A stretch of 37,117 nt of DNA, from contig WQSQ01000013.1 in NCBI GenBank assembly GCA_009787775.1, forward strand, positions 1 to 37,117. The letters run 5' to 3'. The number at the start of each line of letters is the position of its first letter. Positions within the stretch are counted from its first letter, which is position 1. A program made the position numbers and the translations under genes. This DNA is from Treponema sp. (GTDB lineage Bacteria; Spirochaetota; Spirochaetia; Treponematales; Breznakiellaceae). The notes below the pieces were generated by a model. That model saw only the letters and a program-made list of their open reading frames with translations, was not told where the DNA came from and did no database searches. Of the stretch, positions 1,051 to 26,396 are shown one piece after another.

Positions 1051-1788
1051 ATGCCAGTTGCAATAGGAATTATAGGGGCAGTTGCGGGTGTTATCGGGGC
1101 CGGAGCTGCTGTAGCCGGAACCGTAGTGAACGCAAAACAGGGCGCACAAGCAAATAACAACGCACAAAAAGAATTAGACCTGCAAACAAAAAATAGTTAC
1201 CTGCAAGGACTTAATTCAGTCAGAGACTATGAAAAAAGCATAGCGGACATGGAAGCGTCAAAGATTCAGTATGGAATCGACATACGCGATACAACCAGTC
1301 AGATAGACAGTTATGACAAATGGTTAGCGAATTATGGCAATCAATACACACAGGAAGTACAAAGCAAACAGGCCCAGACAGATTCTTTAATGGCCAGCGG
1401 AAAAGAATCATATGACAATTTCCTTAATGCAATAGGCTATTCAGATGCAATGGCAGGAGCTACAGGCCGGGTAGGAGCCGGAACATCACAGGCGCATACC
1501 ACAGGGATGCTTGACCGCAAACTTGTGGATTATGTGGGGGAAGACCGCAGACTTGACGCGCCCGGAGGCCTGTTCGGATCGCAACTGACAGCGGCAAATA
1601 TGGAAATGGATCAGCTGAAAGTAGACCTTGATTTCCAAAGACAGGAGATGATTGCAAACAGAGACCTTGCACAATCGTCCATCGCAGATTGGCAGCAGGC
1701 AATTAATTTAACAGACCAGAGCATTGCAAACAGCAAGGCGGCAAAAAATGATCTTGAAGATTTTATTAATAGGAATTTTGTTGTTTAG
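1051..1788 (+). CDS. T7 gp14-like internal virion protein
   Basis: 245 residues. The N terminus is a Gly/Ala-rich hydrophobic segment (MPVAIGIIGAVAGVIGAGAA) that could insert in a membrane. The rest is a mostly helical, Gln/Asn-rich body with coiled-coil character, no cysteines and no enzymatic motif. This layout, and the position between the nozzle and two much larger helical proteins, is that of T7 gp14 (196 residues), an internal core protein ejected into the host outer membrane to start the DNA channel. Assignment is by gene order and protein style rather than by a signature motif. The ATG at 1051 has GGAGGG about 10 bases upstream. The TAG stop overlaps the AGGAGG that serves the next gene, so translation of the two is probably coupled. 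Confidence 0.68.
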   Translation: MPVAIGIIGAVAGVIGAGAAVAGTVVNAKQGAQANNNAQKELDLQTKNSYLQGLNSVRDYEKSIADMEASKIQYGIDIRDTTSQIDSYDKWLANYGNQYTQEVQSKQAQTDSLMASGKESYDNFLNAIGYSDAMAGATGRVGAGTSQAHTTGMLDRKLVDYVGEDRRLDAPGGLFGSQLTAANMEMDQLKVDLDFQRQEMIANRDLAQSSIADWQQAINLTDQSIANSKAAKNDLEDFINRNFVV

Positions 1789-1800
1789 GAGGATGACGTA
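1787..1800 (+). promoter_or_regulatory. Shine-Dalgarno followed by GTA instead of a standard start codon
   Basis: AGGAGG at 1787-1792 overlaps the upstream TAG. Five bases later comes GTA (1798-1800), in frame with the next gene. No ATG, GTG or TTG lies in that frame until the TTG at 1828, 35 bases past the AGGAGG and with no ribosome binding site of its own. The only nearby ATG (1793) is out of frame and stops after two codons. The same layout recurs at 4614-4626 and 12398-12412. Confidence 0.6.
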
Positions 1801-4620
1801 AGACGTATAAATATTGATTATAACCCATTGCGCAGATCAAAACAGGCAGTAGCAAATGCCGAGCGATCACAATATGTCGCGGGTGATATAAGTATCGCAA
1901 AACAATCATTCGGACTCACAAGACAGGCTCTTGATTTGAATCAGGAAAACATTAACTTTAATAAAAAAATGCTTGTCGCTAATACCATAATTCAAGGAAC
2001 GCAGGCGGCAATTTCATTAACAAATGCTGCTATTGGATTAGGAAACGCTATATTTGAAAACAAACAGAGAGCGTCTTTACAGGCGCAAAGAGGTAATATT
2101 GCACAGGTTAATGCAGAGATAAGACAAGCTGATATAGACGGATTTAATCCTTATGATGAAAACCAAAATTATGTTGGTTATGACGGGTATGTTACGAGAA
2201 ACGGAAGAACCATAGGGGATATGAAAGCGGAAATTACCCAAGGTGTAGGAGAACATTTTAAGACGCAATGGGCTACAAACAGAGCCCTTGAAAATATTAA
2301 CAACGGATTCATTGATATTGAACTAAACGCGCAGATGCGCTTAATGGAAAGAGAATCTGCAATAACAGATAAATTAATGCTTTCTGATTTGTCTGATTTA
2401 AAAGACACAATTATCAGAGGAGAAGTACAATATGATCTTAACGGCAATGAAAAAAACGCAGAAACATCTGTAAGGGATATACTCGTAGGCTATAGTATGC
2501 CTGAATCACAAAGAGAACTTTTAACAAGGCAATTTGTTGATGATGTAAATATTGCCAAAGTAAGGCGAGATGCGGAAAATATAGCGACATCAGGCGGAGG
2601 TTATGCGGCAGCCGAAGCTCATATACGCGCGTCTGGTTTATCAGATGACCAGGAAGCAGACCTAATTAAAAATATGACTCAAGAACACGCTGTTACTATG
2701 AAAGGATTTGAAGATCATATACAACAAATAATTAACCAAGGCAGAGAATCCGGATTATCATCATCGGCTATAAGCGCCTCTCTTGCAGGGCTAGCAGAGA
2801 AACAGACCGACCCGCAGAAAGTTGACAGAATAAATACTTATCGCAACCAGTTGAATAATGACAAGTTGGAACTTTTTAACCAGCAGTTTACAAACGCTGT
2901 TGATAAAGCCGTAAAAGGAGACAGATCCGATCTTGACGCGTTATATGAACGCGCAATAGAAGAAAAAATAATGTCACCTGAACAACTTGAAGCATTGCGA
3001 ATAAAGACAGAACGTGAATTAATACCCGATAATATTCAGAATGAAGTATTAAGAATTGGAAGATTCAACGGCACAGAAGAATCTAATAAATATATTGAAA
3101 CAGAATTAACGAATGGAAATATTTCTGAAATTCAAGCCAAGAGTATGCGCGCAGATGTTACGCAGGTAATTGATCAAATGGTATCAGATGCAGAGACTAA
3201 ATGTGAGGAAGTATTTAACGAAGTATTTAAAAACACCCAATCCGTTGAAGCCGCTACTACAGCAGCCTTAAATACCGGAAGCGAAAACGCCGATGTAAAC
3301 CAAGCTGTCAGCAGACGAGTTGACTATTTGCAAAAATCGGAATTAAACAACGAGCAAGCAAAGAGATTATTTGATTCGGAATATATGAGCTTGGAAACGC
3401 TTAAAAGAAAAAGAGATGAAATTTTAAACAGCGAAGGAAAATATATAAATCAAAGAGAACTGTATAGAACACATCTAAGCCAAGTAAATAATTTAATCGC
3501 TAACAGAGAAGCGGAAATAGCTGCAGCAACAAAAAGATCATCATCTGACATATCATCTTTGGAGATAGCTCTTGAATATGAAAACAATTTTAGGTCAGGT
3601 GATATGTCAGGGCCTATGGCAATGGCATATATATATGGACTTGATATTACAGAATCACAAAGGAGAACTATTTCTGACAGGATGTTAACAGGAGATGATG
3701 GAGCGTTCTCACAATTCTCTATGGCTTTTCAAAGATGGGATTCTTATGCAAACTCGATTGAAGCTCAATATAAGTCTAATAAAGATGATGCAGGTCTGCT
3801 TTTATTTAAGTCCCGTAGAGAAGAATTAAATAGGCATTTATGGCAGATGAGATTTCAAGCAGGCGATGATTCGTCTTCTGGTGTTAAACCAGAGAATATG
3901 CTGTCATACATTAATAATATTATTAAACAGGAACAAGCAGACCACTTGGGTAGAGCAGGCGAGCTAAGAAATTGGGATCAGACAAACAGGGATGCTTCCA
4001 GAGGTGAACTGGATTACTTAACTTACAATGCTTACGATACATCAGGTAATTCTTACCCGGTCACTGTCAGTGGTGGCGAAGAATTACTTCAGGAGTATAG
4101 AAAATCAAGTACAGAAAGAGCACAAAATATATTAACTGGAACCGGATGGCAAATAATTAATAATACTGGGCGCTTTGAAGAAAGAAGCGCAGGAGATGGG
4201 ACAGGACGAATATTGTTTGATCTTGAGAATAACGGTAATAAAGTTACTGTCAGCTTTAATGAAAACGGTGATTTAATAAAGCAGGATGGGACATTATTTA
4301 ATGAACAGATAACACAAGGAAGAGATAATACTATAAGGAATTATCACGCAAGTCATGCAGAAAATTTCCAACAGCAAATTAAAAACGCTGTTATTGATTC
4401 ATTTAATAATCTTAGCAGAGGTCATAATACCCCATTGTCATTCTATGAAACAGTTAATCGTGTATTGGATACTATTCCAAAAACACCTGAAAGAGATAGA
4501 TATAGCCAATATTTATTTGACGATTACGGAACAGATGAATGGCGCAGGCGAATGAACGAATTGTTCAATTTGGGAACGGGAGCTAGAGAAGTATCTCGAC
4601 CAGGTAGTCAAGCGAGGTAA
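1798..4620 (+). CDS. T7 gp15-like internal virion (ejectosome) protein
   Basis: About 940 residues if translation starts at the GTA at 1798, 930 from the TTG at 1828. I prefer 1798 because it sits at normal spacing from AGGAGG and gives a plausible start (xRRINIDYNPLRRSKQ). The frame is closed upstream by the TAG at 1786. The protein is long, hydrophilic and predicted almost wholly helical, rich in Asn, Gln, Glu and Arg, with one Ala/Ile-rich patch near residues 60-75 (TQAAISLTNAAIGLGNAIF). No catalytic motif is visible. Size and place between the gp14-like and giant gp16-like genes fit T7 gp15 (747 residues), which forms the periplasmic part of the DNA-ejection channel. Function is inferred from synteny. 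It ends with TAA just before the next gene in the same frame. Confidence 0.66.
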   Translation, partial: VRRINIDYNPLRRSKQAVANAERSQYVAGDISIAKQSFGLTRQALDLNQENINFNKKMLVANTIIQGTQAAISLTNAAIGLGNAIFENKQRASLQAQRGNIAQVNAEIRQADIDGFNPYDENQNYVGYDGYVTRNGRTIGDMKAEITQGVGEHFKTQWATNRALENINNGFIDIELNAQMRLMERESAITDKLMLSDLSDLKDTIIRGEVQYDLNGNEKNAETSVRDILVGYSMPESQRELLTRQFVDDVNIAKVRRDAENIATSGGGYAAAEAHIRASGLSDDQEADLIKNMTQEHAVTMKGFEDHIQQIINQGRESGLSSSAISASLAGLAEKQTDPQKVDRINTYRNQLNNDKLELFNQQFTNAVDKAVKGDRSDLDALYERAIEEKIMSPEQLEALRIKTERELIPDNIQNEVLRIGRFNGTEESNKYIETELTNGNISEIQAKSMRADVTQVIDQMVSDAETKCEEVFNEVFKNTQSVEAATTAALNTGSENADVNQAVSRRVDYLQKSELNNEQAKRLFDSEYMSLETLKRKRDEILNSEGKYINQRELYRTHLSQVNNLIANREAEIAAATKRSSSDISSLEIALEYENNFRSGDMSGPMAMAYIYGLDITESQRRTISDRMLTGDDGAFSQFSMAFQRWDSYANSIEAQYKSNKDDAGLLLFKSRREELNRHLWQMRFQAGDDSSSGVKPENMLSYINNIIKQEQADHLGRAGELRNWDQTNRDASRGELDYLTYNAYDTSGNSYPVTVSGGEELLQEYRKSSTERAQNILTGTGWQIINNTGRFEERSAGDGTGRILFDLENNGNKVTVSFNENGDLIKQDGTLFNEQITQGRDNTIRNYHASHAENFQQQIKNAVIDSFNNLSRGHNTPLSFYETVNRVLDTIPKTPERDRYSQYLFDDYGTDEWRRRMNELFNLGTGAREVSRPGSQAR

Positions 4621-4626
4621 GGCGTA
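4614..4626 (+). promoter_or_regulatory. Second Shine-Dalgarno plus GTA start-like site
   Basis: GAGGT at 4614-4618 overlaps the upstream TAA. It is followed by GTA at 4624-4626, in frame with the giant protein. The first standard start in this frame is the ATG at 4648, preceded by the T-rich stretch CGATTTTTTAGATTTT, which has no ribosome binding site. The local text GAGGTAAGGCGTAA closely parallels the site at 12398-12412 (GAGGTAGCGCGTAA). Confidence 0.55.
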
Positions 4627-7600
4627 AATAACGATTTTTTAGATTTTATGAGAAGGCAACGCTCAGTTGCAATGGAAAATCCGGCATCTCCTGAATATAG
4701 TGCGATAGCAGAATCACAACGAAGAAAAGCTGAACAGCTTCAGGCTTTTGATGCACACTCCACAGCAATGGATGCTTATAGGCAATCATATGAACATGCC
4801 GTAGATAATCATTATCAATCATTACAGGAACAGCATAGCGAATATTCAAATCTTGGCTGGACACCTCGTAAAGAGGACTTTCCTTTTATTGATGCTATAC
4901 AACCTTTAATTGAAACATCCGAAGACCCGCAGGGCATGAAAGAACGCATTGCAACAGCCAGTATGTATTCAAATATTTTTAATATTCCGCTTCAGACAGC
5001 TTTTTTAAATCTTGAAGAATTACATAAACAATATACTGGAAATGAATATGCAAAAAAATCAGGAGTACAGGCAGTATGGGACAGTATACAGCTTAATTTT
5101 GTAACTGCCGAATATAACAGACTTTCACAGCAGCTTGCTAGAGCAGGAGGAAACGATCCTCATTTATTACAAGCGATTGAAGAGACAGAAAGAAGAATTG
5201 ACCAGTTACGAGATCACGCGCCAAAAGTATGGCAGGACGAATATGTAAAGCAGGGCGGTTGGCATGATGTAGGACAATTTATCCGCAGTGTAAGCACTAC
5301 AATGGCGGAGAACGCAGGCCATATTTTAAAAGGAATGGGCGCAGCGGCGCTTGTTTCTACAGGTGTAGGCGCGCTTGCAGGAGCTGCCGGATTATCATCA
5401 GGATTATCAGCTTTACTTGTAGCAGGCGCAAGTAAAGCGGCAATAGCGGGAAGTACATATGATTCAACATGGGGTATTAAATACCGTGAAATGACAACCG
5501 CGGGTATTCCACATGACATTGCGATTAATTTTGCAAAACAAGATGCTCTTATTGAAGGTCTTATTGAAGGAGCCTTAGGCGGAGTTGAATCAGCAGGAGC
5601 AAAAACAATCGCATCGGCTATCGTTCCAAAGGCCGTAAGAAACGCGACATCAAGATGGTTTATAAGCGGGAAAATGGGAGTAGGAGCAAGAGCCGCATTA
5701 AATATATTACAACAGGGAGTCGAGGAAGGAACGGAAGAATTTATTCAGGCTTTATCCAGCGGCAATATTTACAATGAAGCTGTTGAATATGCTAACAGGC
5801 AAGGCAGGGAGAATTTACAAAGACAAATAGCAAACGCATATTCAGATGAAGTCCGCAGGGAACTTGAAAAAGAACTTGAGAATTATACTGACATTGATAA
5901 AAAAGAAATAAACGCAATTTTTAATGAGGCTGTTGAGGGTTTTGCAGGCGGGTTTTGGACAGGTATATTTATGGGTATTCCTGTATCAGTAACGGGCGGG
6001 ATAAACGATTCAAGATCCGCAGCCACACTCGCGAGAATGGCGCAGATAGCGCCTAACGAGGCTGCTTTTGTCGAAGCGTATAATCAGGCCAAAACACAGG
6101 GCTTTCAATTATCAGCACTTGACGATTTAAAAACAGATGAACAGAGAGAAGTATTATCAGGCGTATACAGGGTAAATAATGAACGCTTAACACCGGAACA
6201 GCGAAAAGCGAAGGAAGAAGCCGCGCAGGACGCGGCCGCGCTTGCTGAAGTTACCAGTTACAAATACCCCATGCAGACATGGATTGATGAAACGACAAAT
6301 GAAGAGGTTTCGGAAGAAAGAAAACTTTCCAGATCAAGACAAGGCGAATTGAGCACAGAAACACACGAAACACAAAATGATAATGGCAGCATAAGCGGCA
6401 TATTTATAGTCACCAGTCAGGAAAGAACCCATGAGAGTGATGGAAAAATATACGCTAACGAAGACGCGAGAATTGTCTATACCGTAAATAATGATAAACA
6501 AACAGTTACAGTTAACAGTTTTACTTTGGAGAATGGTTTTATTAATCCAGATTTAATCAGACAGGATATTTGGGCGGAGTTTACAGGACAGTTTGATAAA
6601 GGCACGGTTATTAATTGGAATTTAGAACATGACCAGTATAAGGCTATCAGACAGCAGTTGATAACCAATAACCCAAGAGGTGAGAAGCACGGACTTAACT
6701 ATTCTTTAACCACTACCGATGCACAGAGACTAGCACAGGCGGTAACGCCTTTAATGCCTACGGGAACATCAAGATTAAGCAACGCACTTGCAGGTGAGAT
6801 TGTTAATACTTTTATCAGAAGACCAGGAGAAAGTTTACAAGGAACTATCAAGAGATTAAATATTGAATTTACAAATGATCCAAGCAGAAACCCGAAAATA
6901 ACAGCGGCTCAGACAAATAACAAGAAAGTACAGGGTGCGACATTCAGAGACTTGGCAGATAGAACAAAAAGAATAATTTATTTAAGTAAAAAAAGTTCAG
7001 ACCCTTCTACACTTATTCATGAATTCGCTCATATCGCGGAAAGTGAATTATCCGATGCGGAAAGAAGAATCGCAGCCAAAGCCTTGAACGGTTATAAAAT
7101 AAGCAAAGGAAATTTCGAGGGACAAATAGTTGATTTTACAAATATCAGCCAGTGGCAGGACATTCACAAGGAAGCATTTACAGACGCGCTTGAGAACTAT
7201 CTCACAAACGGTACGCTGCCGGAAGATCATTCAATAAAACCTCTCTTTGAAAAAATCAAAGAGTTTATGAAACGTATTTATGAGACATTGACAGGCTGGA
7301 CGGAAATAACGCCAGAGCTTGAGAAGTTTATGCAGTCTTTCGTATCAGGCGAACTACGCGAGCAGGCTGAAACAGGCAACCAGACGCACGAGGATTCCCA
7401 TAGTGAAACGCATACAGAAAATACGGTAAATGATACCAGAGAGGCGGTAGCCACAGCCCAGCGGGACGCTATTATCAACGATCCAAATTTACCGCTTGAA
7501 GCAAAGACAGATGCAGTGCTGGATGCGGCAGGTGAAGTGTTGCTACAGGCAGGGGAAATCACTCAAGAGGAACAGCGCAATAGAATTAATCATGTGCTCA

Positions 7601-10600
7601 AATCAAATCCATTAATTGTTGACACCATAGCAATACCATTTAATGGAGATATAAGACAATTAAAGAGGGACGCTTTCCAATATGGCAAAAACCACAAAGG
7701 CAGTTACATAAATAAATCTGATAAAAAGACAATAGATTTTACTATAAGAAATAAACACGGCGGACTTATTGAGATTATAAGCCATGACCATTTTGACAGA
7801 AATCATTTACAGTCTATAGCTGCCATTCCACAAATCGCAACTGAAGCCCAGTATATCACAAGCAAGATAAACGAAGATCCACAAAAACATCCCGGAATAA
7901 GTGAATATAGATATTATCTTTCAAAGTTGTCTATTGACCAAGGAGAAGGAAAAGGCAGTCAAGAGTTCATTGTGAAATCAATTGTTTCTATTGCGAATGA
8001 CGGAAAACGATATTACGATCACCGATTAACAGAAATAGAAAAAGTAAGGGCGTTTATTTCTTCCCCTTACAATGCAACACAAGCAGGATTGGAAACAAAC
8101 ACCCTATATATAAGAGATAACAGACTCCGAGAAATTTTGCAAGAGATCTTTACAGAAAAAGTGCTATACCAGACTGAAGACCATAAGATGATGGAAATAA
8201 AAAAGCTCGAAGGTATGTTAGAAGAGGCGAAAAACGCACACTTCTCCGCTCCGAACTTCATTAATTCAAATATAATACAGCTTACCGAGGCTGTCAAGTC
8301 AGATTCTGTTTTATTCCAATTTGGCGATACTGACATGATTGAAGAGGCCGCAGACTTTGAAAACGGCAAAGAATACCGCGCCTATATCGAGGAAAAACAA
8401 GGTTACCCATCATCGTTCCACGAAGATTTCATGAACTACACAGAAGAACAAATTGACGCATGGTATGAATCAATTGTACAGAACTCAAAGAAAGCTGTTA
8501 ACTCTATAAGATATTACGCAGAACCGGATTCAAGAATTGAAAATCCGACAGCCGCAGATACTGACAGCGAATTCCTTGAAACAATTCATAGTGAAGGGGA
8601 ATTAGAAAACTTTATTGAAACATCCGCCATGATACGTAATGCAGTAAATTACACACAAGAAGACGATAGTCTAGACGGCCAAAGAGATTTGATAAAAAGC
8701 CAGCTTAAAGATCAAGATTGGCAGGCGGCGATGAATACTGTAGATCAAAATGGGAAATTAAGAAAACCGTTAACAAATCGGCAGCGTAACAAAATGCTCA
8801 CTTTAATTGACAGAGCGCCAAGAGACTATAGAGCTATTTACGCGGAATTAATGGAAAGACCTGATTTAGCTGTAAGCCCGGAAGACAGCACTGCGGAAAA
8901 ACTGAAACACAGAATGAATCCTGATGATATTCGCAGAGAAGGGGTTGAAAACTTAACGCCAGAAAAACGCAGACAATTAGCAAATGAAATAGCATATGAA
9001 GCCTACGCAAAGAAAGTTGACGCAGGTACCGCATTGATTGATGATCCGCAGCATAAAGAATATTTTAAACGTTTAAATGCTAAAGTAACAATAGCAGAAA
9101 CAGCCTTGAAAGATTTTGAAGCCGACAGAAATGATGACAATATTCATTTAGAAAAACAGATAATCGCAGAGATTGAAAAATCCTTTGAGCATGTTTTAAA
9201 ACAAAAAGAATTTATAAACCAGATCAGCGATAAATTAGATAAAGCGATTAAAACAGGCGAGAGAGACGCAGCGCAGGCGGCATTGAGAAAACAATCAGCA
9301 ACCGCGTACTATGACAAATTAGTTAAAGACCTAGAGGCATTGGCAAGAACACACCAATTAGAATTGAACGTTAATGAAATACTCGCAAGTGAGAAAATAA
9401 AGGAAGCAGCCAGAGCCGCTAAAGAGGGAACAAAAGAAATATATCAGGCAAAACTGGACGCGCTTAAAGAAGAATACAAAGACTACCGTAAGTCGGCAAA
9501 GACAGAAGCAACATTGTTACAGAGGCTTGCAAGGAAAGCGGCTAGAGCGGAATTGTTGAATCACATTAACGATATGAAACAGCAGAGAGAAAAGGCAAAG
9601 GAAATCACGAAAGCAAAGCGCGGAGTTGTAAAAAGAATATTCAGAAAAATACCTCTTGATATGAACGCAGATCAGGGAATGGCAACAGCGATTATTCAAT
9701 ATTTCGCGGAGCCTTCTTTTAGAAAAGGAATAAACGAGTTTATCAATGAAGTTATAGAACATGATCTGCCTGTTATCTTTAGATTATGGAAGGTTGACCA
9801 GGCGCTCCAGTGGGAACTTTTAAAAGATAAAGCTCCAATTACTCAAGATAAAATGAGACGGCTATTTTCCAAAGAAAGACTTGAAGACCTTACAACAGAT
9901 GAAAAAAGATACCTAGCAAGAAAAATAGCGCCTGAGGATTGGATAAAGGAACTCGGGCTTGACGCGATAGCTAAGCGAAGAAGTGAAAGATACCCGATGA
10001 CAGAGGAACAGAAACAGCTTGTACAGCAATATTTACCGATTGATGTTTACAACAGAATAATGGATAAACCTTTTAGCCAGTGGACATTAGCGGAAGCTGA
10101 ACAGCTCGCAAAGATTATTGATGATCTTACAGTACAGGGGAAGAGCCTGTATAGAGCGCATCAAGCAGTAGAGAAAAAGAGAATTGCTGCTTATCAGCAA
10201 TTAGTTGTTGATACATTAAAAACGACAAAACTTGGATTAAATGATGATGAAATAAAAAAGGAACTGGAAAGATATAAAACAAAAGGCATAAAAGGAACAT
10301 CACAAGAAGAACACAGTGACAGAAAGTTAAGAAAACTTACCAAATTTGACTTCATGAATATTTATCGTTTTACAAGAATACTGGATAACAACCAAACAGG
10401 CGGATATAATCAGCAGGCCTTATACCGCGCGGCAGATGATTCTTATAAACAAAAAATAAGGTACGTTGACAGCCGTACAGAGAAAGTGCAAAAACTCATG
10501 AAAGATTTGGGAATTACAGAGAGCGAATTATGGCAAAAAAAAGTAAAGATTGATTTAGATGATTTGGGAGTAAATGAATTTACAACCGCTGAATTACTTG

Positions 10601-12399
10601 GAGTATTATGCGCTGTAAAAAATGAACACTCTAAAGAAGCGTTGATGTATGGGAATCTTTTAGACCAGGATGAGAAAGCACAATTTCAAAAGCCGGAAAA
10701 AGAAATAGATCAATTAAGATTAGACGCATATAGATTAATTGCTGCTGACAGATTAGAAAAAGTAATAACAGCAGCAGAAAAACTTTTAGAAGAAAACCCT
10801 AATTATAAAAAAATACTTAACGCTATAGATCAAGACTTTGTTGAAGGCGGAAAAAGATTAAATCAAGCTCTTGTCAGATACAATAATACTTTTATGCACA
10901 TAGTAGACAATTATTTCCCCATAGTAAGAACAGAACCAGTTAACGCAAACGCGACTAATGATGTAAAAGAATTAATGGGAAAATCAAGCGGGCAATTCAA
11001 TCTTTATGTAGAAAAGGGTATGACAAAGAAACGTGTTGAAATCCCCATGCAGTATCAGACAGCAATTAATCTTGACATAATGAGAGTATGGACAGAGGCT
11101 GTTGAAAAAGAAGAACATTTCATGGCTTACGCGCAGACGGTTAAAGATTTAAACCAAATTTACATAAACAATAGACAAGTTAGACACACAATAAGAAACA
11201 GATACGGAAAATCGGCATTAGATTACATTGATAAGTATATTCATGAATTAGCAAGCCCTGCCCAAAGAGAAGCAGCAAGCACAATGGATAAAATTGTTAA
11301 ACAGTTCAGGGGAAAAACAGCGGCTTCATATCTTGGTTGGAAAACATCGTCTATTGCTTTACAGGCCATCACAAGCCCCGCGCCCTTCTTTGGTTATATG
11401 AACCCTTTTGAATATTGGGGAGCGTATATTGATTTCGCGTCACATTGGCAGGAGAGATGGAATGAAATATGCGATTTAAGCCCTCACATGAAACACCGCA
11501 GCGCGAACATGATGGTAGATTTAATTAAAGAACAGGCGAAACACGCACAAGGAGACAATTTAATTGAAAAAGCACTTGTTAGAATAGACAAGTTTAACGA
11601 GAGAGGAATAAAAGGGCTTGAATTTATTGACAGATTAAGTGTAGCACCAGGATGGCTTGTTTTATTCCGTAAAGAGCATAAAAGATTGACAAATGACCCT
11701 GCTAATGCTAGTCTAAGTGAAAAGGAAATACGCGTAAAAGCAGCACAACACGCAGACGATATAGTAAGATTAACCCAGCCATCGTCACGAACAGACGATT
11801 TATCACCTTTATTTAAAGTAAACTCAGAACTTGCAAAAGCATTCTTGCAATTCCAACAGAGCTTAAATGTTATCTTTCAAAACATTAGATACGACATGCC
11901 GCAGATGATAAGAGAGAAACAGGGATGGCGAGTTGCAGGAACTGTAATGGGTTACGCTTGCGCAGGGTTACTACTTGGCGTAATAATGACAGGCTTTGAC
12001 GAAGACGATGATGAAAAAGATAAAGCAGCAAAAATGGCATGGTGGGCAACTACACAATTTACAGATTCCTTCCCGCTTATCGGAAATTGGGCAACAGGAT
12101 ATTTAGAAGAATTATTAACAGGTAAAAAACAATACAGACGCGGCTTTGTTTTATTACCACAGGTTGACAAACTACAGCAGGCGCTTGAAACAACCACAAG
12201 AGCAATTACACAAGGCGAGTACGAGAAATTACTCAAAGCGGCAATACAAGCAGCAGAAGCAGGATTTATGTCAGTCGGTTTACCAACATCAGGCACTAAA
12301 GAATTTGGTAGATTTATCGGAGTAGGTGACGGAGACGGAGAATTTGACCTCCATCCCGGCACTTTAATCGGGCGTGATAAAGACGCTGTATGGTTTTAG
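4624..12399 (+). CDS. giant T7 gp16-like ejection protein with zincin motif
   Basis: About 2,591 residues from the GTA at 4624 (2,583 from the ATG at 4648); T7 gp16 is about 1,318. Visible parts, numbered from 4624: a Gly/Ala-rich hydrophobic region near 227-330; a zinc-metallopeptidase motif HEFAH at 799-803 with a downstream Glu in KEAFTDALENYL (E850); a mixed alpha/beta region near 1000-1145 ending RYYDHRLTEIEKV, which resembles nuclease-like domains of large phage polyvalent proteins (tentative); a long Lys/Glu-rich helical stretch; and a hydrophobic segment near 2436-2458 (AGTVMGYACAGLLLGVIM) followed by an acidic patch. Place between the gp15-like gene and the tail-fibre gene implies a virion core protein ejected into the cell. 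I see no lysozyme domain like that of T7 gp16; the peptidase may act on host or virion proteins (inference). Confidence 0.72.
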   Translation, partial: VNNDFLDFMRRQRSVAMENPASPEYSAIAESQRRKAEQLQAFDAHSTAMDAYRQSYEHAVDNHYQSLQEQHSEYSNLGWTPRKEDFPFIDAIQPLIETSEDPQGMKERIATASMYSNIFNIPLQTAFLNLEELHKQYTGNEYAKKSGVQAVWDSIQLNFVTAEYNRLSQQLARAGGNDPHLLQAIEETERRIDQLRDHAPKVWQDEYVKQGGWHDVGQFIRSVSTTMAENAGHILKGMGAAALVSTGVGALAGAAGLSSGLSALLVAGASKAAIAGSTYDSTWGIKYREMTTAGIPHDIAINFAKQDALIEGLIEGALGGVESAGAKTIASAIVPKAVRNATSRWFISGKMGVGARAALNILQQGVEEGTEEFIQALSSGNIYNEAVEYANRQGRENLQRQIANAYSDEVRRELEKELENYTDIDKKEINAIFNEAVEGFAGGFWTGIFMGIPVSVTGGINDSRSAATLARMAQIAPNEAAFVEAYNQAKTQGFQLSALDDLKTDEQREVLSGVYRVNNERLTPEQRKAKEEAAQDAAALAEVTSYKYPMQTWIDETTNEEVSEERKLSRSRQGELSTETHETQNDNGSISGIFIVTSQERTHESDGKIYANEDARIVYTVNNDKQTVTVNSFTLENGFINPDLIRQDIWAEFTGQFDKGTVINWNLEHDQYKAIRQQLITNNPRGEKHGLNYSLTTTDAQRLAQAVTPLMPTGTSRLSNALAGEIVNTFIRRPGESLQGTIKRLNIEFTNDPSRNPKITAAQTNNKKVQGATFRDLADRTKRIIYLSKKSSDPSTLIHEFAHIAESELSDAERRIAAKALNGYKISKGNFEGQIVDFTNISQWQDIHKEAFTDALENYLTNGTLPEDHSIKPLFEKIKEFMKRIYETLTGWTEITPELEKFMQSFVSGELREQAETGNQTHEDSHSETHTENTVNDTREAVATAQRDAIINDPNLPLEAKTDAVLDAAGEVLLQAGEITQEEQRNRINHVLKSNPLIVDTIAIPFNGDIRQLKRDAFQYGKNHKGSYINKSDKKTIDFTIRNKHGGLIEIISHDHFDRNHLQSIAAIPQIATEAQYITSKINEDPQKHPGISEYRYYLSKLSIDQGEGKGSQEFIVKSIVSIANDGKRYYDHRLTEIEKVRAFISSPYNATQAGLETNTLYIRDNRLREILQEIFTEKVLYQTEDHKMMEIKKLEGMLEEAKNAHFSAPNFINSNIIQLTEAVKSDSVLFQFGDTDMIEEAADFENGKEYRAYIEEKQGYPSSFHEDFMNYTEEQIDAWYESIVQNSKKAVNSIRYYAEPDSRIENPTAADTDSEFLETIHSEGELENFIETSAMIRNAVNYTQEDDSLDGQRDLIKSQLKDQDWQAAMNTVDQNGKLRKPLTNRQRNKMLTLIDRAPRDYRAIYAELMERPDLAVSPEDSTAEKLKHRMNPDDIRREGVENLTPEKRRQLANEIAYEAYAKKVDAGTALIDDPQHKEYFKRLNAKVTIAETALKDFEADRNDDNIHLEKQIIAEIEKSFEHVLKQKEFINQISDKLDKAIKTGERDAAQAALRKQSATAYYDKLVKDLEALARTHQLELNVNEILASEKIKEAARAAKEGTKEIYQAKLDALKEEYKDYRKSAKTEATLLQRLARKAARAELLNHINDMKQQREKAKEITKAKRGVVKRIFRKIPLDMNADQGMATAIIQYFAEPSFRKGINEFINEVIEHDLPVIFRLWKVDQALQWELLKDKAPITQDKMRRLFSKERLEDLTTDEKRYLARKIAPEDWIKELGLDAIAKRRSERYPMTEEQKQLVQQYLPIDVYNRIMDKPFSQWTLAEAEQLAKIIDDLTVQGKSLYRAHQAVEKKRIAAYQQLVVDTLKTTKLGLNDDEIKKELERYKTKGIKGTSQEEHSDRKLRKLTKFDFMNIYRFTRILDNNQTGGYNQQALYRAADDSYKQKIRYVDSRTEKVQKLMKDLGITESELWQKKVKIDLDDLGVNEFTTAELLGVLCAVKNEHSKEALMYGNLLDQDEKAQFQKPEKEIDQLRLDAYRLIAADRLEKVITAAEKLLEENPNYKKILNAIDQDFVEGGKRLNQALVRYNNTFMHIVDNYFPIVRTEPVNANATNDVKELMGKSSGQFNLYVEKGMTKKRVEIPMQYQTAINLDIMRVWTEAVEKEEHFMAYAQTVKDLNQIYINNRQVRHTIRNRYGKSALDYIDKYIHELASPAQREAASTMDKIVKQFRGKTAASYLGWKTSSIALQAITSPAPFFGYMNPFEYWGAYIDFASHWQERWNEICDLSPHMKHRSANMMVDLIKEQAKHAQGDNLIEKALVRIDKFNERGIKGLEFIDRLSVAPGWLVLFRKEHKRLTNDPANASLSEKEIRVKAAQHADDIVRLTQPSSRTDDLSPLFKVNSELAKAFLQFQQSLNVIFQNIRYDMPQMIREKQGWRVAGTVMGYACAGLLLGVIMTGFDEDDDEKDKAAKMAWWATTQFTDSFPLIGNWATGYLEELLTGKKQYRRGFVLLPQVDKLQQALETTTRAITQGEYEKLLKAAIQAAEAGFMSVGLPTSGTKEFGRFIGVGDGDGEFDLHPGTLIGRDKDAVWF

Positions 12400-12412
12400 G
12401 AGGTAGCGCGTA
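12398..12412 (+). promoter_or_regulatory. Third Shine-Dalgarno plus GTA start-like site
   Basis: AGGAGG at 12398-12403 overlaps the upstream TAG, and GTA is at 12410-12412, six bases later. An in-frame TAG at 12404-12406 closes the frame, so the start must lie at or after 12407. The first standard start in frame is the GTG at 12590, far inside a conserved domain. This is the strongest of the three cases, because starting at 12590 would delete about 60 residues of that domain. Confidence 0.66.
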
Positions 12413-13075
12413 ATATTCAATACAGATTCACAAAAAACTTATGATTTAATAGTACCATTCCCCACACAGTTTGTTATTCCATTTATTTATAACAGCCCTG
12501 AACATATAAAGTGTTTCTGGCAAATCAAAACAGATGGCGAATTACCATATGAGGAAAGACACTGGCTGACTTTTGGAACCGATTATAAAGTGTCAGCTAT
12601 TCAAGCGCAAGACACAGGCGGAACCCTTACGCTCATAACAAGTATTCCAATTGAAGCACAGCAGCTTGTCATTCGTCGTATAACACCAAGAACACAAACA
12701 ATAGATTTGCATAATGGAGGTAGGCTCACTGCAGAATTAATAGAAGATATGACAAATAAAGTCACAATGCTTATACAGGAGATTGACGCACAAACAATTA
12801 CAGACGATAACATGCAGGACATAAGAAGAGATATAAATACTGCGCTTGTGACAGCTGTAGATAAATTATTACAACGTATCTTTGAAGTCGATATAAAGCT
12901 TGCAGAACAATACCGGCATTTACAGACACAATTGGAAGAATATATATTCCTGACAAAATTCTTGATAAATTTCATAGAATCCAAACATGGGCCGTTGGGC
13001 GGAGCCTTCCCATTAATAACAGATAACGGAGATTATCTTGTGACTGATAATGAAGATTTTTTAGTCACCGCATAA
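12410..13075 (+). CDS. T7-type tail fibre N-terminal adaptor protein
   Basis: 221 residues if begun at the GTA at 12410; the first standard start, the GTG at 12590, would leave 161. The early text (FNTDSQKTYDLIVPFPTQF, then FVIPFIYN, HWLTFGTDYKVSAI, GTLTLITSIPIEAQQLVIRR) follows the N-terminal domain of T7 gp17: 'TYDL...F.IPFEY', 'L..nTDY', 'L......RR.T', then GGRLTAELIED. That domain anchors the fibre to the tail and needs the residues encoded before 12590. A helical stretch follows and then a short acidic end (DNGDYLVTDNEDFLVTA). No receptor-binding part is present, so this is probably an adaptor carrying the lectin-like protein encoded next. It follows the gp16-like gene as gp17 does in T7. 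Confidence 0.75.
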   Translation, partial: VIFNTDSQKTYDLIVPFPTQFVIPFIYNSPEHIKCFWQIKTDGELPYEERHWLTFGTDYKVSAIQAQDTGGTLTLITSIPIEAQQLVIRRITPRTQTIDLHNGGRLTAELIEDMTNKVTMLIQEIDAQTITDDNMQDIRRDINTALVTAVDKLLQRIFEVDIKLAEQYRHLQTQLEEYIFLTKFLINFIESKHGPLGGAFPLITDNGDYLVTDNEDFLVTA

Positions 13076-13109
13076 ATAGCGGTAATCCACTTAATTTAAG
13101 GAGTTCTTT

Positions 13110-14288
13110 ATGGAAACCAAGAAAACATTCAGAGACCTACTGAATGCAGTGCCACTAGCTGATGACGATGTGTTCGCCTTACATCAGTTAGGAGCATTTA
13201 ACCCTATCCTGCAGCAGAATGGCGACACCCGTAGATTAACAGTTAAGGAGTTAATGAATTATTTTATGCTGCCATTTTATGCCGCAAGTTCGCCTTTTTT
13301 AATTGCCAGCGACAGACGGAAATTAACCATAAAAAATGGTACTAAAATCGGTGATGTTATTATCCGTCAGGACATAGAACTGAATGTATCAAATACACTT
13401 GACACAGGAGCGATTACAAACGGTAAGGATTATTATGTTTTCATTTCAAAGACAACACCGATAAATTTCCTAATAAGTTTAAATAAAACCGCTCCGAATG
13501 GTTTTACACGAATAGGAGAATTCCATACCTTATGCGCAAGCGTAGGAAACGGGCTTACATATGAAGAAGGTGGAGAAACAAAAAATCATCTTTTAAATGG
13601 ATATGTAGCAGGCGATATTCTGCCGTATTCGGTATCGTGTTTAAATCACAGGCCGTTCAGTGAACCGGAAGGAATGGCCTACATTCCCAGTCTTGACTTC
13701 TGGTCAGACATATACCTACCGAGCGGAAACGGCATTAATACAAAATCCGTTTATCAGGGAGCGATTACAAGATCAAGACAGTATGTAGATTTTGTTGAAG
13801 ATATGTTTTGCGTTAAAAAAGAATTACTTGACGATGCCGAGTTTGCTGCTGCTATGCTTGGATCAAATGAGCAGACCGCGGTAGCAGGAGAAAGCGCATC
13901 AGCAGCCACAACCGGAGGAGCTGGTGGAAGAGTAGATACAGCAGGCCGCAGAATGATAAGCATCTATGGCGTGGAGGAAGGCTGCGGGAGTTTATGGCAA
14001 TGGCTAAGAACCACATCGGCTGCCGGTTACGGCGAAAACTTGATTTATGGGCAGCTGACGTCGGGTTATGGGGATATCTTTATAGGAACAGCGAATCGCG
14101 GGCCTTTCTTACAAGCTGGCAACAAGGGTAGTTTCTACGGTGTTGTGGCCACTCTAAGGGGAGGCGGTAGTTATACCGATGGCTCGAGTTGTGGGTCTCG
14201 TGCACGTAATGCGTTATACGCTCGATCTGGTCGCGGCGGTGATGCCACTGGTCGGGGGCGGAGCAGTGCATTAAGGATTAGTTTATAA
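13110..14288 (+). CDS. phage receptor-binding protein with C-type lectin fold; DGR target type
   Basis: 392 residues; ATG with AAGGAG upstream. The N-terminal half should attach to the tail. The middle has the phrases typical of phage variable proteins (GDILPYSVSCLNHRP, SEPEGMAYIPSLDFWSDIYL). The last ~110 residues look like the C-type-lectin/FGE-like fold of DGR targets: RRMISIYGVEEGCGSLWQWL, then LRGGGSYTDGSSCGSRARNA, then the end GRGGDATGRGRSSALRISL. In known DGR proteins the CGSRAR...GRGRS stretch carries surface positions diversified through template adenines. This would be the adhesin that chooses the host surface ligand. A small hairpin follows the stop codon. No reverse transcriptase, accessory protein or template repeat was seen in the window, so the DGR assignment rests on the target alone. 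Confidence 0.8.
   Translation: METKKTFRDLLNAVPLADDDVFALHQLGAFNPILQQNGDTRRLTVKELMNYFMLPFYAASSPFLIASDRRKLTIKNGTKIGDVIIRQDIELNVSNTLDTGAITNGKDYYVFISKTTPINFLISLNKTAPNGFTRIGEFHTLCASVGNGLTYEEGGETKNHLLNGYVAGDILPYSVSCLNHRPFSEPEGMAYIPSLDFWSDIYLPSGNGINTKSVYQGAITRSRQYVDFVEDMFCVKKELLDDAEFAAAMLGSNEQTAVAGESASAATTGGAGGRVDTAGRRMISIYGVEEGCGSLWQWLRTTSAAGYGENLIYGQLTSGYGDIFIGTANRGPFLQAGNKGSFYGVVATLRGGGSYTDGSSCGSRARNALYARSGRGGDATGRGRSSALRISL
14126..14285 (+). other. candidate DGR variable region (VR)
   Basis: This is the 3' end of the lectin-like gene, from about the GSFYGVVATLRGGGSY segment to the last sense codon. It encodes the conserved frame CGSRARNA...GRGRSS with unrelated residues at the positions that usually come from AAY codons in a template repeat (for example Y-T-D, L-Y-A, S-G-R). 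Many of those codons end in C or T, as expected if only the first two bases were mutagenised. The limits are approximate because no template copy is available for alignment. Confidence 0.5.
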
Positions 14289-14304
14289 AACGTGAAGACG
14301 TTTT
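14287..14304 (+). other. hairpin just after the variable region
   Basis: AAAACGT (14287-14293), loop GAAG, ACGTTTT (14298-14304): a 7-bp stem with a 4-base loop that overlaps the stop codon and is followed by a T-rich run. DGR target genes often carry a short hairpin with a 4-base loop directly behind the variable region, needed for efficient retrohoming. A weak intrinsic terminator is the alternative, but the next gene begins only 22 bases later. Confidence 0.45.
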
Positions 14305-14326
14305 TATTTTTAATAAGGAAAAAATC

Positions 14327-14704
14327 ATGAACATTTATCTGAAGAAAGAAAACGGCACTGTAAAAGTTTTTTACAGTGAAGAAGAAATGGTCGGAGCTGG
14401 TTACACCGCGGCTGACAAGATAGTCGCCGAGGAAGAATTTAACAGTAATGGTTGTTATACCCGGATTATCAATGGTGAAATAATTGTGGGTAGGACAGTT
14501 GAAGAAATTGAAGCTGAAGAAAGAGCTGAAAAAATTAGCGAGGTTGACGGACAGCTTGAAGCTCTTGACAGAAAATACTTGACTCCCAGAGTGCTTGGAG
14601 GCATAGGGATAGGCGATGAATACGCCATTGGAGAGCGCAATAAGCACGAGCAGGAAGCTGCACCGCTGAGAGTAAGACGGGAAGAGTTAATACAATCAGC
14701 CTGA
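14327..14704 (+). CDS. probable tail fibre assembly chaperone
   Basis: 125 residues; ATG with AAGGAA upstream, 38 bases after the lectin-like gene. The first ~60 residues form a beta-rich part (MNIYLKKENGTVKVFYSEEE). The rest is a charged helical part (EEIEAEERAEKISEVDGQL, then LEALDRKYLTPRVLGGIGIG). This two-part shape, with a C-terminal 'EI..L...D.K....R....G' helix pair and a place directly behind the receptor-binding gene, is typical of small phage tail-fibre chaperones. It is also about the length of DGR accessory variability proteins, but those are all-helical and highly basic, which this is not. It is the last recognisable phage gene before the host-type genes. Confidence 0.5.
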   Translation: MNIYLKKENGTVKVFYSEEEMVGAGYTAADKIVAEEEFNSNGCYTRIINGEIIVGRTVEEIEAEERAEKISEVDGQLEALDRKYLTPRVLGGIGIGDEYAIGERNKHEQEAAPLRVRREELIQSA

Positions 14705-14952
14705 CGGAAGAAATGATGTACCTGACGATAATACTCTTAAAAACACGGTAAAACACGCGTTATTGCCAAACTGCATACGCGGTTACAATTGTGGTTAGAA
14801 TGCGGTTACATATCAATAAAAGTATTTTGTAGAGTATTTGTAGACAATACGAAATAAATTCATTGTAACTCCTTATCCTGTAAAGAATTAAATAAAATAG
14901 TTTATTTTTTAAGGGAAAAGCTATCGGTTTTGGTTAATTAAAGTCTGTGTAA
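14705..14952. other. prophage/host junction interval with short repeats
   Basis: There is no gene here. It holds three spaced copies of a 9-base motif (GCGGTTACA 14779-14787, GTGGTTAGA 14791-14799, GCGGTTACA 14802-14810) at 11-12-base spacing. A tandem repeat follows (GTATTTTGTAGA 14822-14833, GTATTTGTAGA 14834-14844). The interval separates phage tail genes from signal peptidase genes, so an attachment site may lie here, but the other prophage end is outside the window and no tRNA gene was seen. Confidence 0.4.
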
Positions 14953-14958
14953 TTGATC

Positions 14959-15987
14959 ATGCTGTCTTTTTATGATAGATTTACGCAAATGCTGAATGAA
15001 AATAAACAACTTGATTTTTTTGATCACATTCAATCCATAACTGAGAAATACCTGACATACAGGGCTAAAATACGGCGAATTAAGAAAGAAAAACGCAAAG
15101 CAAAAAACCCTGTTGTAGACTGGATTGAAGCGTTTTTATGGGCAGCATGCATGGTTTTATTAATAAATCAATATTTGGTGCAGGCGTACAGGATTCCTTC
15201 AGGATCAATGATTGATACTCTTAACATAGGAGACCATGTTTTTGTTAATAAAATTATTTACGGACCGGAATTATTACCTGGTTTCTTAAAACTTCCAAGT
15301 CCTGTCATTCCAAAAAGAAACGATATTATTATTTTTGAGAGTCCTGCTTATATTTCACGCGGAACTGTTTTTGATATAGCCCAAAGAATTATCTACATGC
15401 TTACCTTATCTCTGGTTGATATAGACAGGGATGAAAGAGGTGAGCAGCGTATTCACTTTCTTATTAAGCGCGCGGCAGGGCAGGCCGGTGACCGCTTTAA
15501 AATTGAGAACGGAGAGATGAGAATCCGTTTTGCAGGAGAAGATCGATGGGTTTACGAGAGAGAATATAACGCTTCCCGCAGTTGGGATCATAACATCAGG
15601 AGGCTTGTGTCTGAAGATCAATATCCGGCGCTTTTGGCGGCAGGGCAGGCAAGAGGATGGAGCGATTTGGGGTTTCCCGTCTCTGAAGAATTATATTTTA
15701 AAGCTTCTCCGGTTGAAAATATGCAATACGGCGACAGTTTTGCATATCAACGTTCAAGACTGGAAACTCAAAGAAAAGCCGCCGTCCAGGACAGACGTTA
15801 TGCGATGCTTCATGCCAGAGAACATGTTCTTGGCTTGTTTGTACCTGAAGGGAGAATACTTCCTTTAGGCGATAATCGTGACAGTTCACATGACGGAAGG
15901 AATTTCGGGCCTGTCAGATTGTCAAAGGTTCTTGGCAAAGGATTAATAATTTACTGGCCGTTTACAAGAATAGGGAAAATTAAATAG
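14959..15987 (+). CDS. lepB: signal peptidase I (leader peptidase)
   Basis: 342 residues from the ATG at 14959; a TTG two codons upstream (14953) is equally possible, and neither has a clear ribosome binding site. After a ~50-residue basic cytoplasmic N terminus comes one membrane anchor (WIEAFLWAACMVLLINQYLV). Next is the catalytic Ser box IPSGSMIDTLNIGD (Ser83), the general-base Lys box FLIKRAAGQAGD (Lys170), and near the C terminus GDNRDSSHDGRNFGPV. All active-site residues are present. A long insert between the Lys and GDNRDS boxes explains the large size. The enzyme cleaves signal peptides on the outer face of the inner membrane. It heads a + strand group with a divergent paralogue (8 bases later) and hemW. 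Confidence 0.93.
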   Translation: MLSFYDRFTQMLNENKQLDFFDHIQSITEKYLTYRAKIRRIKKEKRKAKNPVVDWIEAFLWAACMVLLINQYLVQAYRIPSGSMIDTLNIGDHVFVNKIIYGPELLPGFLKLPSPVIPKRNDIIIFESPAYISRGTVFDIAQRIIYMLTLSLVDIDRDERGEQRIHFLIKRAAGQAGDRFKIENGEMRIRFAGEDRWVYEREYNASRSWDHNIRRLVSEDQYPALLAAGQARGWSDLGFPVSEELYFKASPVENMQYGDSFAYQRSRLETQRKAAVQDRRYAMLHAREHVLGLFVPEGRILPLGDNRDSSHDGRNFGPVRLSKVLGKGLIIYWPFTRIGKIK

Positions 15988-25979: not shown

Positions 25980-25988
25980 GTAGCGTAA

Positions 25989-26075
25989 CTTCGGCAATCC
26001 TTGCCGAAGCCGTTCCGCAGAAGCGGATTCTAGGAACGGTTTCGCGCATGCCTGACAACTCTTCGTCAAGTCAGG
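25989..26075 (-). promoter_or_regulatory. three stacked hairpins in the flaB leader
   Basis: CTTCGGCAA/TTGCCGAAG (25989-25997 with 26001-26009, 9 bp, 3-base loop), CCGTTCC/GGAACGG (26010-26016 with 26033-26039) with an inner CCGC/GCGG, and CCTGAC/GTCAGG (26051-26056 with 26070-26075). They lie 27 to 113 bases upstream of the flaB ATG. None has a T-run behind it on either strand, so they look like a structured 5' untranslated region rather than terminators. Confidence 0.55.
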
Positions 26076-26396
26076 TCGCCATCCCTATATCCGCCAACAG
26101 AACGAAACGATCGATTTATTATCTTTACTCAGCCACTGCCTTATCAATTGTTATGTCTCTGAACAATTAATAATCAGGTATTTCCAAATAGTAATAAAAT
26201 AATCGTTTCGATCTGTCCCGCGCATCCAACCGCTTTATCATCAGTAATACATCTAATTAAACGCATGCCACACATGTTACTAATTGAACGGTTAGACGGC
26301 TAGAAGGTTTCTTTCAAAGAACATTGCGCAACAGCCGAAACATCGGATATTGACGACAAAAAACACAAATATTGGTCCGTAAAAACACAACTGAAC

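Follow-up and report, generated by a model that had tools for sequence, protein, structure and literature searches.

The known natural changes to the genetic code reassign sense or stop codons in elongation, and to our knowledge none of them introduces a further start codon together with a dedicated initiator tRNA. Reassigned stop codons and suppressor tRNAs are found in crAss-like and Lak phages, the rare bacterial start codons are GTG, TTG, CTG and ATT, and initiation from 64 codons has reportedly been tested in an E. coli study. Engineered orthogonal initiators comprise an amber (CUA) system and, in vitro, GUA/UAC and AAG/CUU pairs, the GUA/UAC pairs initiating efficiently in vitro, according to the introduction of a preprint (PMC13232202, 2026). 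According to the relevant passage of another paper, avrE of Pseudomonas syringae has a suspected GTA start, described as 'highly-atypical' and thought to permit low-level translation at best (PMC3411506). Besides avrE, a GTA start codon is named in an excerpt of a crustacean mitogenome paper; among the open-access full texts searched, none mentions GUA as a start codon and none was recognised as reporting phage-encoded initiator recoding, and the excerpts of a termite metavirome paper contain nothing on such start codons.

The window analysed here, 37,117 nucleotides long, is the whole of contig C13 of genome G000 (2.04 Mb, 71% complete), and it holds the following phage features.

1051..1788, + strand: gp14-like internal virion protein, ATG start, control gene
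1787..1792, + strand: J1 Shine-Dalgarno AGGAGG of the gp15-like gene, 5 bases 5' of GTA
1798..1800, + strand: J1 putative GTA start codon of the gp15-like gene, C at -1
1798..4620, + strand: gp15-like protein, named by gene order
4614..4617, + strand: J2 Shine-Dalgarno GAGG(T) of the gp16-like gene, 6 bases 5' of GTA
4624..4626, + strand: J2 putative GTA start codon of the gp16-like gene, C at -1
4624..12399, + strand: gp16-like very large ejection protein, named by gene order
12398..12403, + strand: J3 Shine-Dalgarno AGGAGG of the fibre gene, 6 bases 5' of GTA
12410..12412, + strand: J3 putative GTA start codon of the fibre gene, C at -1, in-frame TAG at 12404
12410..13075, + strand: T7 gp17-like fibre N-terminal protein, PHROG tail-protein match
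13110..14288, + strand: Mtd-like receptor-binding protein, ATG start, control gene, Pfam mtd_2nd and PHROG 11262
14327..14704, + strand: final gene of the phage, next to host DNA, ATG start, control gene

An earlier note on this DNA had read three of these genes as starting with GTA 5-6 bases after a Shine-Dalgarno, among phage genes at 1051, 13110 and 14327 that use ATG, and the re-read coordinates are all as it described. At none of the three junctions does an ATG, GTG or TTG lie at a usable distance from the Shine-Dalgarno, the first in-frame ones of the three GTA-headed ORFs being at 1828, 4648 and 12590. The TAG stop of the gp14-like gene overlaps the Shine-Dalgarno of the gp15-like gene, and the gp14-like gene itself has an ATG start also in L002, L003, L010, L011 and L016. 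The reasoning of the earlier note on the fibre junction holds as well: beyond the in-frame TAG, a start at 12590 would cut into the PHROG tail-protein match, because this match spans residues 53-125 of the fibre protein (P0003). In the window, gp14-gp15 and gp15-gp16 share a frame. The gp15 and gp16 labels come mainly from gene order, because the gp15-like protein has no match in PHROG or Pfam. As judged from sequence, GTA is almost certainly the start codon of these phage genes. Another candidate, the ATG at 1793 that opens the mini-ORF ATG ACG TAA, was rejected as not conserved, L002 reading CTG.

The end of the phage region offers observations of its own. In L044, which has a gene of equal length at the same place as the window gene at 14327..14704, the Mtd-like gene is followed by a diversity-generating retroelement (DGR) made up of a repeat pair (118 nt, 78% identity, 7150-7267 and 7333-7450) and a reverse transcriptase, and L044:7565-8587 also belongs to this DGR region. 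The window retains the Mtd-like gene (13110-14288), with no repeat copy found in 12990-14960 and no reverse transcriptase between this gene and the host peptidase gene, so that its DGR target looks frozen.

Relatives were drawn from IMG/VR, GTDB genomes and genomes of the family, and include Treponema sp. and Spirochaetaceae bacterium MAGs; only distinct phages were counted, the duplicates L007, L010, L011, L038, L040, L047/L048 and L090 being left out. From the isolate names and an Rfam Termite-flg match in the window, the phages probably come from termite guts; the matching RNA (RF01729, 66 bits) lies in the host part of the contig, at 25984-26112 on the minus strand. At the junctions which the earlier note had suggested comparing in related prophages, GTA is kept: it starts the gp15-like gene in 13 of 13 distinct phages (window, L002, L003, L006, L008, L013, L014, L015, L016, L039, L041, L042, L055), the gp16-like gene in 10 of 12 (window, L002, L003, L006, L008, L013, L014, L015, L054, L055), and the fibre gene in all eight (window, L003, L044, L045, L049, L050, L056, L057), every one of which aligns from residue 1. 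The two other gp16-like genes are those of L016, where GTG replaces GTA at the identical position, and L057, where the start is probably ATG. The gp8-like connector also starts with GTA in 8/8 distinct phages (L046, L051, L052, L053, L057, L087, L088, L089). These GTAs persist in relatives that were assembled separately and whose neighbouring gp14 is as little as 44% identical, with a variable following base (GTAA, GTAG, GTAC, GTAT) and a spacing of 5-6 from the Shine-Dalgarno in 45 of 51 cases. In the gp15 alignment, protein conservation starts at the GTA-encoded residue (VR-L/I-I...PLRR). The phage connector, which matches those of epsilon15 and Pelagibacter podophages, has its first ATG near residue 35, and the annotated CDS of the distant epsilon15 connector begins at the position that aligns with residue 13 of the phage connector. 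Starts were ordinary in the stretches read of the 71-kb phage L094, from the metagenome of L008, and of L092, a distant connector relative. Two further features of relatives are recorded here: L053, the most divergent phage, has long ORFs with CTG after strong Shine-Dalgarnos at 12627 and 4303, perhaps CTG starts, and L046 carries PAPS-reductase-like and radical SAM genes amid phage structural genes (5395-6147 and 9216-10034).

A census of Shine-Dalgarno-led codons (at least 5 matching bases, spacing 4-8) covered the first 60 codons of each selected ORF in 16 phage contig sets, with repeated contexts removed. Among its 549 codons ATG occurs 75 times (11.4 expected), GTG 9 times (3.5 expected) and GTA 66 times (11.6 expected; 5.7-fold; binomial p 2e-29, a guide only, because the sequences are related and p-values overstate independence), these 66 rows including six that were flagged as likely false but kept in the counts: two with A at -1, one in G199 behind a GTG start and three with an ATG, GTG or TTG earlier in the ORF. 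No other codon is comparable to ATG and GTA, and nearly half of the clearly marked genes in these phages begin with GTA; GTA starts behind GGGGG-type (such as in L015 and L057) or short Shine-Dalgarnos are missed by the rule. This excess and the recurrence in separately assembled relatives bear out the view of the earlier note that the pattern goes beyond chance. The same rule applied to 1,211,260 bases of the host in 77 pieces, with repeated contexts kept, gave 1881 codons (ATG 296, GTG 39, TTG 26, GTT 44, GTC 19), among which the 24 GTA are background. Host-wide GTA use, not seen in 400 kb or in these 1.21 Mb, was rejected.

The base before GTA follows a rule. At the 66 phage rows it is T in 48, C in 16 and A in 2, that is, a pyrimidine in 64 of 66 Shine-Dalgarno-led GTA as against 45% at internal GTA codons; ATG starts obey no -1 rule (A25 T20 C10 G10), and the -2 base is even in Treponema phages (G14 C13 A12 T12). 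The window clade (the window, W, with G195 and two contigs of G200) has C at all 12 GTA rows with a pyrimidine there, a further row with A being likely false, and the other lineages have T 48, C 4 and A 1, so that C versus T stands at 12:0 against 4:48 (Fisher p 5.5e-10, on related sequences), one of the four C rows in T-lineages being likely false. Four GTA families of the window clade, namely gp15, gp16, fibre and a 282-aa family (69% identity between L043 and L046), have C where other lineages have T. Such a concerted difference across gene families is evidence for a trans-acting reader touching base -1. The motif CGTAA, which the earlier note saw at all three window junctions, does contain a common element, but this element is YGTA: CGTAA is the form of one lineage, because the -1 base is a pyrimidine, C in the window clade and T elsewhere. 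A recoding signal tied to CGTAA, also considered in that note, does not hold, since TGTA is the form in most relatives and the +4 base is variable.

A candidate for this reader is found in a prophage of genome G037. A pattern for tRNAs with a UAC anticodon (GGG not required), run on 39 genomes of the genus, matched contig G037:C109 (L157), along with ordinary tRNA-Val and numerous hits due to chance. The GTA rows of phage contig G037:C103 are all TGTA; a DNA search that used the end of this contig as query led to the end of C109 as well, and the two contigs share an exact 100-bp end overlap within a repeat gene. L157 carries early-region genes (CI-like repressor, HTH protein, Erf, exonuclease, NinG) and, between the repressor and the recombination genes, a pair of tRNAs, one with anticodon UAC and one with CAU. 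The UAC tRNA, which ARAGORN calls tRNA-Val, has C1-A72 unpaired, A11-T24 in the D stem (by eye) and a GGG:CCC anticodon stem (CTGGG-GTTACAG-CCCAG; loop GTTACAG, A37). It is closer to the host initiator (72% identity) than to the host elongator tRNA-Val(UAC) (56%) or the elongator Met tRNA of G000 (0.42), and we name it initiator-type, not fMet, because its anticodon is UAC rather than CAU. In the G037 phage, whose tRNA thus carries A37, T precedes GTA in all 11 rows, of which one is doubtful. Eight gene starts were read in L157, leaving out the ORF at 541-1902: seven are ATG and that of the HTH gene is probably TTG. Of the 16 phage contig sets, only this one showed the UAC tRNA; the contigs of the other 15 do not extend over the early region, and the prophage of the window lacks this half. 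The accompanying CAU tRNA (L157:4601-4674) is 63% identical to the host initiator, its A1-C72 seems to be unpaired, and it is perhaps a second phage initiator.

We propose that these phages form a clade of temperate podophages of Treponema-like bacteria in which GUA is very probably a second start codon beside AUG, read by a phage-encoded UAC initiator tRNA, at least one member carrying the matching initiator-type tRNA. With UAC in place of CAU, this tRNA would read GUA at initiation, and its body would keep the formylase and IF2 requirements through the C1-A72 mismatch and the three G-C pairs of the anticodon stem. Valyl-tRNA synthetase reads the anticodon; the altered tRNA is probably charged with valine, which would put formyl-Val at the head of the proteins. 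Base 37 may pair with base -1, A37 with U, and in the window lineage a predicted G37 tRNA would pair with the C at this position. Since the tRNA gene belongs to the early region, whose own genes are without GTA starts, efficient translation of the GTA genes (connector, gp15, gp16, fibre and replication initiator) would have to await induction. It can further be hypothesised, tentatively and with somewhat less than an even chance, that this is a natural orthogonal initiation system, in which the four-base signal YGUA gates the passage from lysogeny to lysis and the choice of C or T makes the systems of related phages mutually orthogonal. As a gate, it would keep the GTA genes from being translated before the tRNA is produced from the early region; as a four-base signal, GUA would be read by the anticodon UAC and base -1 by base 37.

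Among the matches listed in 195 genomes of the family, the sole exact UAC-initiator match is the G037 prophage tRNA, the others being mostly ordinary CAU initiators at two mismatches and the rest noise-like; the one- and two-mismatch matches other than G094 and G057 were judged from their letters only. Of the two adaptations that the earlier note had offered, that of the host finds no support in this result or in GTA use, which is not above background in 1.21 Mb of the 2.04-Mb host, and that of the phage is supported by the conserved, phage-specific GTA starts. The tRNA-like near matches in G094 and G057 proved to be repeats, ARAGORN does not recognise an initiator-like arm in G000:C35 as a tRNA, and a host initiator with a changed loop was rejected, the exact GTCGGGCTCATAACCC being present in 26 of the 39 genomes of the genus. 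In the C-lineage hosts G000 and G029, no UAC-initiator match was found at up to two mismatches and no ordinary initiator tRNA either, so that these assemblies probably miss such loci. The early half of the window prophage was sought with nine phage proteins, which found no match in 1.21 Mb of G000. ARAGORN and Rfam found no tRNA in the late-region phage contigs except one tRNA-Gly, of host type and at a contig end beside the integrase, which is probably the attachment site. Among the similar tRNAs listed for cultured or GenBank phages, the six examined (POI1126, MT835736, NTR1, CN1A, PaMx74, DoCa5) all have CAT; in Ochrobactrum phage POI1126, with a similar tRNA body and anticodon CAU, the annotated starts are ATG or GTG in the 33 read of 78 features, and no convincing GTA start was seen. 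The tRNA piece had no match in plasmids. A separate oddity is L073 (G069:C308), tRNA-like, with apparently two anticodon arms in tandem (CCGGGCTTGTAACCCGG, ATCAGGATTGCAACCTGAT) before the T arm.

A pattern scan of IMG/VR gave seven further contigs, five with initiator-type UAC tRNAs and two with ordinary tRNA-Val in tRNA arrays. Among the five, base 37 is A in L178, L180 and L183 and G in L177 and L182, and bases 1-72 are C-A in L183, C-T in L178 and L182 and A-A in L180 (by eye), those of L177 being apparently paired C-G; the GGG:CCC stem of L177-L183 tells nothing, because the search pattern required GGG. Before the full contigs were read, they were predicted to contain GTA starts whose -1 base, C or T, would follow base 37, and such starts were found in one of the five, G205 (L178). 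This unrelated virus is rich in GC and encodes portal-head and tape-measure-like proteins; TGTA is the first possible start in five of its genes (L187 at 16078; L188 at 7404, 9340, 11641 and 12050), so that T precedes GTA in 5/5 and the tRNA has A37; no phage homologue was found for a protein of L188. No convincing GTA start was seen in G204, G206, G207 or G208: among Shine-Dalgarno-led codons GTA accounts for 2/79 in G204, 0/10 in G207, 0/57 in G208 and 5/83 in G206, where it is the commonest, but with mixed -1 bases and deep in ORFs. The contigs of L177, L180, L182 and L183 thus have UAC initiator-type tRNAs without convincing GTA starts.

Among other explanations, the one that survives best, though improbable, is that GTA is read weakly by the host CAU initiator tRNA, keeping the proteins scarce. 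T7 internal core proteins are low-copy, the GTAs are kept behind strong Shine-Dalgarnos, and wherever an initiator was found in the genus it is an ordinary one (exact in 26/39 genomes), all of which fits. However, connector, fibre and replication genes use GTA too, and GTG, TTG or ATT would do equally well; the lineage-specific C or T would be unexplained, since hosts G000 and G029 (C) and G037 (T) belong to one genus, and so would the phage UAC initiator-type tRNA. It is slightly less probable still that this tRNA is a mere elongator tRNA-Val for GTA codons, unrelated to starts. Phages often carry elongator tRNAs, ARAGORN makes the call tRNA-Val, and four of the five other viral contigs with such tRNAs are without convincing GTA starts; yet the C1-A72 mismatch, A11-T24, the GGG:CCC stem and the greater identity to the host initiator than to tRNA-Val(UAC) argue for an initiator, and G209 and G210, which have ordinary elongator tRNA-Val, show 0 and 2 Shine-Dalgarno-led GTA beside 4 and 10 GTG. 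It is very unlikely that ribosomes do not initiate at GTA but read through, shift frame or reinitiate at an overlapping NTG or start-stop element. The same-frame gene pairs at J1 and J2 would suit readthrough, but stop readthrough fusing gp14-gp15-gp16 was rejected, since gp15-gp16 are out of frame in L002 and gp14-gp15 in L015 and L016, so that readthrough is not the common cause. An out-of-frame NTG does overlap GTA in T-lineages and G205, but the C-lineage has NCG, the -2 base is even in Treponema phages, and the NTG would lie just 3-4 bases from the Shine-Dalgarno. A systematic sequencing or assembly artefact, such as a base-modification miscall of GTG or ATG, which the earlier note had raised and which the CGTAA common to the three window sites might suggest, has a negligible chance, since the same GTAs occur in several separate IMG/VR metagenomes and MAGs with differing flanking bases and the neighbouring ATG starts are intact.

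If initiation at GUA by a phage-borne initiator tRNA is true, the identity of a start codon can evolve in nature with a matched tRNA, and phages have a way of controlling late genes at the initiation step. Such genes would then be missed or mis-started by gene finders limited to ATG, GTG and TTG, and a natural orthogonal initiator would be open to study.

These phages can be set beside several known systems. The clade, which we take to resemble BPP-1, has the T7-like order of ejection proteins of BPP-1/epsilon15-like temperate podophages and shares with them an Mtd-like tail protein, which in L044 comes with a DGR, and a lambda-like early region; the GTA starts and the UAC initiator-type tRNA set it apart. 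Rare bacterial starts are non-ATG as well, but they depend on the normal initiator. The avrE case, as the relevant passage presents it, is a single suspected GTA, whereas the phage GTA is conserved and nearly as common as ATG among Shine-Dalgarno-led codons. In stop-reassigned phages, a phage-borne tRNA likewise alters decoding and later phage genes need it; there, however, elongation inserts an amino acid at what was a stop codon, whereas in the GTA phages it would be the start signal that changes, internal GTA presumably still being valine. The engineered initiators, as summarised in the preprint introduction, likewise combine an initiator body with an altered anticodon that turns a non-AUG codon into a start, but they are laboratory constructs, whereas the phage system is apparently natural, serves many genes and carries an added constraint at base -1.
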